Shown one piece after another: positions 42,439 to 50,289 of a stretch of DNA of 64,000 bases. Below the pieces are notes generated by a model. It did no database searches. It saw only the letters and a program-made list of their open reading frames with translations, and was not told the origin of the DNA. The DNA lies in the NCBI GenBank assembly GCA_964058805.1, contig CAXKVV010000043.1, positions 372,001-436,000 on the forward strand, given 5' to 3'. A program made the position numbers and the translations under genes. This stretch comes from Schoenoplectus triqueter. Taxonomy: Eukaryota > Streptophyta > Magnoliopsida > Poales > Cyperaceae. Each line of letters opens with the position of its first letter. The first letter of the stretch is position 1.

Positions 42439-45351
42439 CTAAAAACTGAGAGAAGCACGCCGCATTGACTCAATCTTAACCCACACTTCCTTGAGGAGGT
42501 CTGGCCTATTCTCCCTTGATGGATCACTGCACCGAAGACCCAATACTACCATTCTCTTAGCTTCTTCAAACGGCCACTCTCCGGCGGAAGCATCGACAAA
42601 ATTCTTCCCATTGTGAAGAGCATCCCCCACCGACTTCCTCAAACCCATTGGGTTCCTCCCAGTAACCAACTCCAGCAATACAATACCAAAAGAGTATACA
42701 TCATACAGGGGAGTCAATTCACCGGTTTCCAAGTGTTCTGGATCCATGTATGCAAGTGTTCCCTTTATCTGTTCGGTGTAGTAGTGTGCTGTGTTTCTCG
42801 AATCATTTCTTTCAAGATGTCGGCATATGCCAAAGTCACTGAGTTTGCCCATGTAATTAGAATCCAGGAGGATGTTCATTGACTTGAGATCTCCATGAAC
42901 TATACCGTTGGGCTTGACCGAATGGAGAAAAATGAGAGCTGAGCAAATATTGGAGGCTATGCGGATTCTTCTTTTCCATGTCAGAGTATTGTGTTGCTGC
43001 TGGTTCCTCAATATATCACCTAGGCTGCCATTTGGCATCAACTCATAGACTAGTGCCTGCGCCTCCCGACATGCACCTAACAGCGTCACAATATTCGGGT
43101 GCATAACTCTGCTTAAAACTTCTACCTGTAAATATAACTTCAACGTCATTAACTACCCTCATGCAACTTGTCAAAGTTCATGCAGACTGCAGAGTAGTAA
43201 GGTACGTGATAATTGAAAGGAATTTTTTTTTTATGGAAAAACCTCTTGATTAAACTGTCTGTTCCCGTGGCTGCTCTCATCTTTTAGAATTTTAATGGCG
43301 ACTGGTCTAAGCCCGATGAACGCCTTGTACACGGGACCAAACCCTCCTTCTCCAATCTTAAGTGAATCACTAAAATCATTGGTGACTTTCCTGAGCTCTG
43401 CATGGGTGTACTCTGTAAAGTTTGCCTCCAAATGATTATCGGTTTCTATTAACAAGCGAAATTCCTCTAGATTTCTTTTAATATTGTCTGTTTCCATTGT
43501 CTGCTCAGTATTCTGCGTTTTCAGTTTCTCAATCTCGTTCAATTTACTTTTGAGTTGTTCCTCAATTTCTTTCCTCGCATTTTGTTCGACCAGAAGAGAT
43601 TCCTTGGCCAGCTCAGCGTTATGCTTTGTCAATCCCTCAATTTTCTCTCTTCCATTTTGCAGCTTGGCATTCTGCCTTTTCAATTGATCAATTTTATTGA
43701 GCATTTCCTGTCGTAGTTTTTGGAGCTGACGTAGTTTCCCTCGGGTTACTAGGAGCTGCAGTAAAACGAAACAATAGCTACCCAGCATTACGTAATAGAT
43801 TCCACTAACATTTGTGAGAAAAGAAATAAGAAAATTAAGACTTCTATTTTTTTGCTACAGACCTTAGATAGAATGGTCGAATCGCGGACTTTAGTGAGGA
43901 GAACATGGCCATTGCTATTAATTGCATAAAAGCTTCCACTGCTTGTACCTTCTGTTGCGCGAAAAATATTGTAATCACATATTTTTTCGCTAGAAATAAT
44001 TTCTGCCGTCTCCAAATCGTGTACAGTTATTAAACCTCCCCACGTTATAACATAAATCAAGCCATACTTCTCTACAATCTGCACCCAGAAAATGAGAGAA
44101 GATTTTGTTTCAATGCAAGAATGTAACCTGAAAACTTTTGGAGACGGCAGAAAACGTTTGCATTTCATCTGATATGCAAACGGATCAAAAACTATAATCT
44201 CAAAATTTTTAATTTATGGTTTTTATTAGACTCTTCATATAAAAACCTTGTGGGATATAAAAATTTGAAGTGTTTTGAGTTTTTTAAGTCACTCTTTTGA
44301 ATTTAAAAAAAAATAGCTCTAAACATAATAATAAATATTCAATGTTTGTGTTGTTTTTTTTTAAATTTCAAAAGAGTGATTTAAAAAACTCAAAACACTC
44401 CAAATTTTTGTATCCCGTAAGGTTTTTCATATGAAAAATTTAATGAAAACCATAAATTAAAATTTGTGAGATTTTAAAATATAGTTTTTGATCCGTTTGC
44501 ATATCGACTAAAATACAAACGTTTTCACAATGATCTCTATATATATATAGTCTGGCTACGGTGCTACACATAGCACAAATGACTCGTGTTATGGATCCTT
44601 TCTCCATTTTTAAAGTTCAAATAGTTAATTCGGCCGCTCAAAATAATTTTCATATGAAAATTTAGTTATAAACCAACTTTTATATTTTTTTATTATTTTT
44701 TTAGATTGTTAGAAAATCACTCAATTTGAATGACACATAATAATTAAATAAAATGATTTTCTAACTATCTAAAAAATAGTAAAAAAATTCTAAGGAATAT
44801 AAAATTTGATTTATAACTAGATTTTCAGATGAAAATTATTTTGAGCGGCCAGATCAACTATTTGAACTTTGAAAATAAAGAAATGAACCATAACGCACAG
44901 GCTATCTGTACTATGCATAACACCACAACCAAACTATATATATATATATATATATATATAGTGCTTTGCAAAGCACAAAGGCGTTATGTGGTTTGCGCTC
45001 TATTCTTAATTTCAAGTTAGAAATGACCGATTTGAATCATTTAATCTAATCTCAATATCAAAATCTATTAGTAAACCAAATTTTATATATTTTTATATAT
45101 TTTATATTTTTTTGCTATTTTTTCATGTGAGGAGAAAATGACTTAATTTGATAATTCTGATTCATCCAAAAATAATGGTTTTCCCCCTATTAAAAAATTG
45201 CAAATAAATTCTAAAAAATATAAAATTTTGTTTACTAATAGATTGATATGGAGATAGATTGAGCTGTTCGGATTAATCATTCCTGACTTAAAATTAATGA
45301 TAGGGCGCAAAGCACGGAATGCTCTTGTGCTTTGTAAAGCACCATAGCCTC

Positions 45352-45410
<59 letters not shown>

Positions 45411-48400: not shown

Positions 48401-50289
48401 TTCATTTGTAGAGAGCAGAGTGAAAAACAATGGACAGATATCGTAATTTTTTGTGTCAATGTATTTACTTTTTAAATTTTTAATAACTTCAAATTTAAAA
48501 TTTAAATATCAAAATAAAACGGTTAGATTTGATCTATATTATATTACCTTCTTACACGTAAAAAATATTTATTTTTTCGCTTTTATTTTATATAAATCAA
48601 TAAGTTATAAAAATAATATCTAAAAATTAATCATATTAATATATTTTTTACAATATGTGGATGTTATATAAAATAATATTCAGACGTCATAATTTTTAAT
48701 CTATACATATATATAATGATTTAGAACAATTCTAAAAAAAGTATTTTTATATTTTAGTTTTTTATTTTTATTTTGAGTTATTAAATTTTTTAAAAATGAA
48801 GATATAATTGAGACATTTAAACCCTCACGGGGAGTTTCAAAACTATGATCTTATACAAGTACATACTTCAAAGTTAAAATTTACGTATACCAGAGCTTGC
48901 TACACTAATATTATACTAAAGTACGGGACCTAAATGATTCAGATTTTTTTGGTAAATAAAATAAGAAAAATAGAAAAATGGTATGAGCATTCTATTTTCT
49001 TATAGTTTGGACCGAGTTTCGATCTTAGATGTTGGGACAAAATTTCAAATTCAGTTTCAGGTAATTTTTATTTTTTTTACGTTGATTTGTTTATTTGCAC
49101 TAAAAAAGCAACAAGAAGCCAGTGAATATACGTTTCATACATATTTGGCTTACAACCAATTTCAATTACGCATAAAAGCTGCTTCTCGGCGTAGGAACAA
49201 ACTTTCCCCACCGTGCAAATATCGATCAGGGTCCACATTTTGAACTAGATTCTACATTGAACTCGATTAGAAAACTAACCTTCTATGGACCAGTGGTAAA
49301 CAGCTCTCTGTGTAACCAGACCCAAAATTTTGGGTGTCATCCATTTCCAATACAGGACCTATATATACACGACCAAGATAGAAAAAAAAAAAACTATTTG
49401 GTGTCTATAAATTAAAACCTCAAATTGGAGGTGATTTATAAAATATAAGAACATAACATAAATTATATATATGACCTTCTCAGCCATATCATAAGACTTC
49501 AGTTTGGTATTTGCTTCAACATTAAATATTTGCAGTCGATCCTCTCTTCTTCCATCTATTTGAGCTGCATATTTAAGTTCCCAATGTTTTCACAGTTAGT
49601 TTTTCTGTGTATCATTCTATTTATATATATGACTAAACATCTGCATGTGGCATCACTTAATAGAATTATTTTGTGAATATATATATATATAAAGATGATA
49701 GTAAGGGCATATGTAACAAATCCTCTCTTGTAAAGTGTTAGGAATGAAGTTTGAGCCACTAATTCTATGCTTCTTCTGTATAGGCACTAGCTTTAACAGT
49801 GAGGAGACGCTAGAGATTGATCCAGTGTGACCCGCCAGAACCAAGGATTTTAACAATTGGAAGGAAAATGCCCTCCTTTGTTACCAATAAAAGATGAAAG
49901 TGACCGAGAGAGATTAATCAATAAATGAAACCTTCAACTTTAAAAGCAAGGATAGCAGTGTGAGGGCTCATAATTGCCGAATCAGCGGTAATGGGTAGCC
50001 TTAAGGGTTTCTCAGGCTTGGTCATGTCTATTATCACAACACACATTTTCTCTCTGACGCATATGTACTTCTCCGACTCCATTGTAATATGGTCGGCTTT
50101 TATAAATTGCTTGTTTATCCCTAGGTCCTTCAGCTGAAAATGAAAGGCGTATACACCCATGCAGATGAATTAATTAAGATTAACAGAGAAAGATAGATAG
50201 AGTTGGCAATTATTAATGGATCAGAGAACTGAACTTACAGAAAACAATACTTTGGTGGTGAACGTGGAGTTATCACCCATTGCTGCCAT
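42439..50289 (-). CDS. Chimera: clathrin heavy-chain propeller + coiled coil + PUB-type protein kinase
   Basis: Eleven minus-strand exons: 50289-50239, 50133-49932, 49564-49476, 49358-49280, 48358-48204, 47384-47301, 47197-47083, 46996-46929, 44078-43863, 43755-43243, 43125-42439. All phases join, without a stop, to 752 aa. Residues 1-353 match clathrin residues 1-354 exon for exon ([50 protein letters not shown]). Residues about 358-460 are a Lys/Glu/Gln-rich coiled coil. Residues about 485-748 are a kinase: GEGGFGPVYK, VAIK (K508), HGDLKSMNILL (D603, N608), SDFG (621-623), MDPE, DVYSFG, then a stop after ENRPDLLKEVW...SLSF. HGD replaces HRD, as usual for PUB33-like kinases. The usual USP domain and U-box are absent. 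The intron joining the two halves is only 107 bp. Function unknown; possibly an adaptor-tethered kinase or clathrin decoy. Confidence 0.9.
44171..44505. mobile_element. Foldback 1 in chimera intron 8
   Basis: GATATGCAAACGGATCAAAA at the left and TTTTTGATCCGTTTGCATATC at the right pair over most of the length, with the centre near 44340. Same family as the element at 16479-16891. Confidence 0.85.
44550..44938. mobile_element. Foldback 2 in chimera intron 8
   Basis: Left arm GGCCGCTCAAAATAATTTTC with TTTTTAAAGTTCAAATAGTT; right arm GAAAATTATTTTGAGCGGCC with CTATTTGAACTTTGAAAATA. It is flanked by TATATA runs. Confidence 0.85.
44959..45352. mobile_element. Foldback 3 in chimera intron 8
   Basis: Ends GTGCTTTGCAAAGCAC (left, itself palindromic) and GTGCTTTGTAAAGCAC (right). 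The arms pair through GTTTGCGCTCTATTCTTAAT against ATTAATGATAGGGCGCAAAG-like sequence. TA runs lie on both sides, the right one more than 45 bp long (about 45355-45408). Confidence 0.8.
45410..45782. mobile_element. Foldback 4 in chimera intron 8
   Basis: Left TCTAAAATACGATGTCTTGCATCGATGCA and right TGCATCCGTACAATGCATTCCATTTTAGA are inverted, as are AATCTCAAACTTCAT and ATGAAGTTTGAGATT. The written arms are imperfect matches. Confidence 0.8.
45808..46158. mobile_element. Foldback 5 in chimera intron 8, right arm cut
   Basis: Left arm GGCTATGGTGCTACGCGTAG, then GATCGATCTGATAGCTCAAA. The right arm holds GGTCAGATCAACCATTTAAA and ends at GTGATATATA, where the TIR MITE at 46159 starts. The outermost right terminus is therefore missing or displaced. 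Same family as foldbacks 2 and 6. Confidence 0.75.
46159..46564. mobile_element. TIR MITE, 406 bp, in chimera intron 8
   Basis: Perfect 15-bp terminal inverted repeats GGGTGTGTTTGGATG and CATCCAAACACACCC. The flanks are ATA on both sides, a possible 3-bp target duplication as in PIF/Harbinger-like elements. Inner inverted similarity includes CTAACCCG/CGGGTTAG. No coding capacity. It abuts foldback 5 on the left and is close to foldback 6 on the right. Confidence 0.85.
46578..46810. mobile_element. Foldback 6 in chimera intron 8
   Basis: Left GAGCTATGATGTTATGCGTA with GTTCAAATGATCGATCTGAA; right TTAAATCGATCATTTGAACT with ACATACGTATCATTGGTGCT and CCCAACTC. The short centre carries TTTTCATATGAAAATC and its inverse. 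At 233 bp it is the shortest of the six. Confidence 0.8.

Follow-up and report, generated by a model that had tools for sequence, protein, structure and literature searches.

A clathrin heavy chain propeller joined to a PUB33-like coiled-coil kinase in Schoenoplectus triqueter, and its possible place among kinase fusion proteins of sedges and rushes

Kinase fusion proteins with integrated domains, such as Sr43, Lr9/WTK6-vWA, Pm4, Snn3 and Pm13, combine a predicted active kinase with an unrelated host domain in one chain and reflect repeated captures. Integrated decoys have been proposed for Sr43 and Lr9 (PMC10260397, PMC10260399), and Pm4 binds and phosphorylates its effector (PMC12830362). 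Resistance genes for these proteins have been described as apparently restricted to the wheat tribe (PMC10260397), kinase-vWA fusions as such having been reported across the grasses (PMC10260399). Here we describe a gene, labelled C42, from a 64-kb stretch of Schoenoplectus triqueter DNA (contig CAXKVV010000043.1, positions 372,001 to 436,000; the whole stretch is referred to as the window). C42 encodes a kinase and an unrelated domain within one open reading frame, the N-terminal propeller of clathrin heavy chain (CHC) being followed by a coiled coil and then the kinase. The kind of protein is a known one, the kinase fusion protein; what is new here is the kinase type, the host domain and the plant group. 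The C42 kinase is PUB33-like and not LRR_8B, the most frequent type among the cloned kinase fusion proteins (PMC10951266). It also differs from the known examples in that its clathrin domain is N-terminal, in that it groups with sedges and rushes and not with grasses, and in being known from sequence alone.

The nearest kinase relatives of C42 are the PUB33-like U-box kinases, which have the same coiled coil and kinase but from which C42 differs in that the window yielded neither a USP domain nor a U-box. With CHC it shares the N-terminal propeller, the phases of exons 2-9 and the clathrin-box residues, but the linker and CHCR models do not match it. In human tumours, CLTC-ALK fusions likewise place CHC N-terminal to a kinase; these are somatic, retain most of CHC and involve an unrelated kinase. 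The earlier note on this DNA knew of no described protein of the C42 type, and we met no description of a plant clathrin-kinase protein among the matches listed in open PMC papers (subscription papers and preprints are not covered); annotated counterparts from Juncus, Brachypodium and Lolium are, however, present in the databases.

C42 runs from 50289 to 42439 on the minus strand. Its model, which the earlier note had given as 11 exons joining in phase to an open 752-aa gene, was rebuilt and held up: the exons comprise 2259 nt (752 aa and a stop codon), there is no internal stop, and all 10 introns have a GT donor and an AG acceptor. The features of the gene are as follows.

50239..50289, minus strand: exon 1, which contains the start codon and corresponds to the N-terminus of CHC (alignment with Juncus and rice)
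49932..50133, minus strand: exon 2, clathrin propeller; matches the window CHC exon at 28606-28810
49476..49564, minus strand: exon 3, clathrin propeller; contains Q96 and F98, counterparts of clathrin-box Q89 and F91
49280..49358, minus strand: exon 4, clathrin propeller
48204..48358, minus strand: exon 5, clathrin propeller; W box altered (Q152 to K, I154 to W), W174, the counterpart of W164, kept
47301..47384, minus strand: exon 6, clathrin propeller
47083..47197, minus strand: exon 7, clathrin propeller
46929..46996, minus strand: exon 8, clathrin propeller
43863..44078, minus strand: exon 9, the final clathrin propeller exon
43756..43862, minus strand: intron 9, 107 bp, relic of CHC intron 9 (intron alignment against shuffles)
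43243..43755, minus strand: exon 10, with about 8 codons of CHC exon 12, the coiled coil and the kinase N-lobe
43724..43731, minus strand: inferred fusion breakpoint between the CHC exon 12 remnant and the PUB-type coil
43429..43731, minus strand: coiled coil, residues ~362-462 (heptad shuffle test)
42439..43125, minus strand: exon 11, with the remaining kinase and the stop codon; no U-box found

Residues 17-351 of C42 align with solved CHC N-terminal domains (best E 1.6e-53), and the Clathrin_propel Pfam model scored 20.2 bits, just below its cut-off of 21.3. Pfam kinase models matched residues 484-694 (1.4e-43) and 486-733 (9.2e-42), and the kinase motifs GEGGFG, VAIK, NQEV, HGD and DFG were all intact. 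The stretch between propeller and kinase is proline-free and rich in leucine, glutamate and lysine. Its heptad periodicity gave a mixed result, the mean score being matched by 6 of 1000 shuffles and the peak by 243 of 1000; for the coil of the second copy described below, the corresponding figures were 0 and 22 of 1000. Within the 752 aa there was no Pfam match to the CHC linker, to the CHCR repeats of the legs or the trimerisation region, to a U-box or to an NB-ARC domain, and the chain stops after the kinase. Nor did the C-terminus of a Typha PUB protein, or its residues 1-230 as a USP query (at E 0.01), give a tblastn match in the window, the N-terminus of C42 being taken by clathrin.

A second copy of the fusion was found on contig C1212 of the genome searched (82.1 Mb in 2086 contigs, possibly incomplete). 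It carries CHC exons 3-9, the coil and the kinase in the same order as C42, and is in phase with no stops across 785 codons from exon 3 to the stop. A search of related plants, as the earlier note had proposed, revealed the same domain order in Juncus effusus LUZ60_005814 (P0002), an annotated protein of 767 aa that is 44% identical to C42 with 98% of the query aligned. The order propeller, coiled coil, kinase that the earlier note had read from C42 was seen in three genes. Because the C1212 copy has the same order and the Juncus protein is aligned over 98% of C42, chance and misassembly are both very unlikely, and the misjoin named in the earlier note as a possible refutation was not borne out. 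The clathrin-kinase fusion gene is real and is present in two copies in this genome. The Juncus protein differs from C42 in that it has kept the CHC linker region (Clathrin_H_link 27.7 bits, cut-off 27.8) and in that its coil is joined at another point. On contig C1212, a part of the long intron together with a stretch upstream (L006 6040-8000 and L007 6000-7645) resembled, by eye, an inserted retrotransposon.

The protein search with C42, in which 7995 candidates were scored and proteins more than 1.75 times the query length were excluded, identified clathrin and kinase domains together in 4 of the best 120 of 193 matches (P0002, P0004, P0005 and P0006). A profile search built on the three fusions returned the same four proteins only, among the best 120 of 156 matches. 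P0004 is a Brachypodium 'clathrin heavy chain 1-like isoform X3', P0005 is Lolium QYE76_027283, and P0006 resembles an alternative form of P0004. As annotated gene models only, P0004 and P0005 are like C42 in having a clathrin N-terminus followed by a kinase, but that kinase is 30-33% identical to the one in C42 and 41-44% identical to the first kinase of a Festuca kinase-MSP-kinase-U-box protein. It is possible that these grass proteins represent a separate origin of the clathrin-kinase fusion. In Festuca glaucescens P0126, a kinase, an MSP domain, a second PUB-type kinase and a U-box were seen in one chain.

The earlier note had assigned residues 1-353 to CHC and the remainder to the coiled coil and kinase of PUB33-like proteins. 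Both sources stood, but the clathrin part did not end at residue 353: exon 10 opens with about 8 residues (LLVTRGKL) that seem to be left over from CHC exon 12. This remnant is short, and an equal score was obtained in 0.7% of 2000 codon shuffles. In the C1212 copy, the start of exon 10 gave a global score of 71 in an end-to-end DNA alignment with CHC exon 12, the highest of 2000 codon shuffles reaching 31; a local DNA test had a narrow margin (28, with 27 as the best of 2000 shuffles) and a protein test was weaker (score matched by 24 of 5000 shuffles). In this junction exon the CHC exon 12 sequence is in frame with the coil. Homology of C42 to the coil of a related kinase gene on contig C471 (see below) starts at exon 10 offset 31. 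Since clathrin homology stops and C471-coil homology starts there, we place the breakpoint at about 43731-43724, that is, probably inside exon 10 at about residue 361-364. A junction at the boundary of exons 9 and 10 was dropped when exon 10 was compared with CHC exon 12 and the C471 coil.

The introns were compared against shuffles of single bases. In C42, the part of intron 9 from base 26 to the 3' end scored 64 against CHC intron 9 (maximum 47 in 1000 shuffles). The start of C1212 intron 9 scored 48 against CHC intron 9 (maximum 44) and its end 50 against CHC intron 11 (maximum 46), each matched by 0 of 1000 shuffles with a thin margin; the score for the C42 and C1212 introns compared with each other was matched by 1 of 1000. 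These CHC exon and intron relics mark the integrated domain of C42 as copied from a host protein. The simplest reading would be that the ancestral fusion consisted of CHC exons 1-11 and the start of exon 12, and that exons 10-11 were deleted separately in the two copies; the intron relics fit an ancestral fusion of CHC exons 1-11, as in Juncus, where the exon 10-11 region is retained.

The likely donor of the propeller is the CHC gene of the window, which lies tail to tail with C42, its last matched exon being 3.8 kb from the C42 stop codon. The exon-end phases of C42 exons 2-9 are the same as in this gene, of which exon 1 and anything past the end of the 1361-aa Asparagus query were not located.

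28606..38596, plus strand: CHC gene, likely propeller donor; coding exons corresponding to residues 16-1360 of the 1361-aa Asparagus CHC

Whether the fusions descend from one capture was addressed with trees of each half. In the propeller tree, which was made without Juncus or Carex CHC and in which the fusion propellers are long branches, the propellers of C42, C1212 and Juncus came together (96/89), and a tree with Juncus set apart was not rejected (p 0.08). In the tree of 36 kinases, a single clade of the three clathrin-fused kinases was rejected (approximately unbiased (AU) test, p 0.005), the kinase half of the Juncus fusion being placed with a Juncus PUB kinase with weak support (91/68). 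Clathrin would thus have been captured either twice, or once with a later exchange of N-termini. A structure prediction of the Juncus fusion from 10 sequences was too poor to be used, with a mean predicted local distance difference test score (pLDDT) of 54 and a predicted template modelling score (pTM) of 0.39.

The kinase half places C42 in a wider lineage. Searching the genome with exon 11 (150 of 286 candidates scored) gave 153 matches, of which C42 (100%), C1212 (71%) and C471 (71%) spanned almost all of the exon; by E-value the match that followed was 41% identical and other long stretches reached up to 47%, these weaker matches (up to 47%) being left out of the kinase tree. In that tree C42 and C1212 were sisters (100/99) with C471 next to them (100/97), and the window kinase was placed among Cyperaceae and Juncaceae sequences. 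On contig C471 (11176-17223), a VAP27/MSP domain (PF00635, 63.9 bits) is in phase with the coiled coil and kinase; the start codon was not found there, and the start of the first listed exon was set arbitrarily in frame and has no acceptor. In Carex rostrata, four proteins (P0127, P0136, P0165 and P0166) have Hsp70 N-terminal to the same kinase type according to precomputed Pfam annotation, which was rescanned for P0127. C42, C1212, C471 and the Hsp70-kinases fell in one clade of 12 (99/97) with sequences from Juncus, Carex and Rhynchospora. Because C471 carries VAP27/MSP and the Carex rostrata proteins carry Hsp70, host-protein N-termini have arisen repeatedly in one lineage, and this sedge and rush lineage thus appears to repeat the pattern of the kinase fusion proteins with integrated domains, among which Snn3, like C471, carries MSP (PMC10260397). 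These other borrowed cell proteins on the closest kinases give hints of a family of bait-carrying immune kinases. Another Carex rostrata protein, P0122, had two kinases in tandem.

The ratio of nonsynonymous to synonymous substitution (dN/dS, Nei-Gojobori method), which the earlier note had suggested for both halves, was below 1 in each when C42 was compared with C1212: 0.55 (0.41-0.81) in the propeller and 0.38 (0.28-0.57) in the kinase. Against C471 the C42 and C1212 kinases gave 0.21 and 0.23, and against the window CHC the fusion propellers gave 0.29 and 0.31. The propellers have changed far faster than CHC, with end branches of 0.78, 0.42 and 0.44 in the propeller tree against 0.042 for the window CHC.

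The reading we favour, at about an even chance, is that C42 is a host-mimic sensor kinase of a PUB33-like cyperid lineage, in several members of which host-protein N-termini are present and the USP domain and U-box are missing. The propeller would then serve as a fast-evolving mimic of clathrin, bound by pathogen proteins or by clathrin-box ligands; the coiled coil would gather several propellers and so make weak, peptide-scale binding avid; and a bound ligand would alter the clustering of the kinase, which might phosphorylate the ligand or a partner and trigger a defence response. We take the VAP27-1 protein to be the product of AT3G60600. A table of integrated domains overlapping with effector targets names that gene as one targeted by the effector HARXLL492 (PMC4759884), and entry of blast effectors into rice via clathrin-mediated endocytosis has been reported (PMC10291035).

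Several observations weigh against a sensor role. There is little to support clathrin itself as an effector target or an integrated domain, the word 'clathrin' having 0 occurrences in the main texts of two integrated-domain surveys (PMC4759884, PMC12787737). Juncus P0172 lies in the same kinase clade and has kept its U-box, with no host domain found in it, so that host-domain capture does not characterise the lineage as a whole. The fast evolution of the propeller would fit relaxed constraint equally well; taken exon by exon, dN/dS was 1.35 in exon 3 (30 codons) and 1.07 in exon 7 (38 codons), both on few codons; and exons 1-2 of the second copy were not found within contig C1212.

More tentatively, the sensor reading may extend to a modular family of sedges and rushes, in which the N-terminus of a PUB-derived coiled-coil kinase has been swapped between a clathrin propeller, VAP27 and Hsp70, so that each protein used by pathogens in trafficking or as a chaperone is displayed as an oligomeric copy. 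The clathrin copy would watch the endocytic entry of effectors, and the grasses would have made their clathrin-kinase fusions independently, with another kinase type. If true, a separate sedge and rush family built on another kinase with clathrin, VAP27 and Hsp70 would mean that the design is more widespread, and the family would indicate which host proteins are possible targets of pathogens. C42 in particular would provide a directly testable natural case of a clathrin head that is oligomerised and coupled to a kinase.

An explanation without immunity, which we think rather unlikely but which survives best of the alternatives, is that the propeller docks the clathrin-box peptides of adaptors and either recruits the kinase to coated vesicles or acts there as a competitor of clathrin. 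A propeller on a coiled coil resembles the oligomeric construct of the clathrin N-terminal domain (NTD) with NEMO that was designed for binding assays, and the binding-site residues of the NTD (both PMC5182127, the residues from its Table 2) allow the fusions to be compared. Clathrin-box Q89 and F91 and arrestin-box W164 and L183 are kept in the propellers of C42, C1212 and Juncus, as adaptor tethering would predict, Q89 and F91 also speaking for the sensor reading, but they may simply be structural: seven plant CHCs have 188 invariant columns at which the three fusions each have a residue, and 66 of these were kept in all three. The other sites argue against tethering. Q152 of the W box is kept in Juncus only and I154 in C1212 only, C42 having Q152K and I154W and Juncus having V in place of I154. 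Q192 is kept in C1212 and Juncus but not in C42, where it lies next to an indel and the alignment is unsure, and E11 is altered in C42 and Juncus and lies outside the C1212 coverage. K96 and K98, which we take to be contact residues, are variable. The propeller is also evolving far faster than CHC, and, because the close kinases carry VAP27 or Hsp70, a role specific to clathrin would explain only part of the family.

It is improbable that C42 is an old chimaera of little function decaying under relaxed constraint. The long propeller branches, the loss of CHC exons 10-11, the two short exons with dN/dS above 1 and the lack of exons 1-2 on the C1212 contig would all fit decay, but there were 0 stops in 752 and 785 codons, whereas 300 simulations in which the C42 coding sequence was substituted at random produced on average 16.6 stops (minimum 7) with 0.2 substitutions per site and 9.2 (minimum 0) with 0.1. 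In both halves the confidence limits of dN/dS stay below 1; the splice sites are intact, as are the catalytic motifs, and a counterpart exists in Juncus. An annotation or assembly artefact, in which two neighbouring genes or a misjoin had been read as one gene, is very improbable and was rejected on the second locus in the same order, on its junction exon with CHC exon 12 in frame with the coil (71 against a maximum of 31) and on the Juncus counterpart.

Elsewhere in the window, an open frame at 11511-12053 (minus strand) resembled by eye the N-terminus of a phosphoinositide phospholipase C, and one at 58278-58769 (plus strand) an EF-hand calmodulin-like protein.

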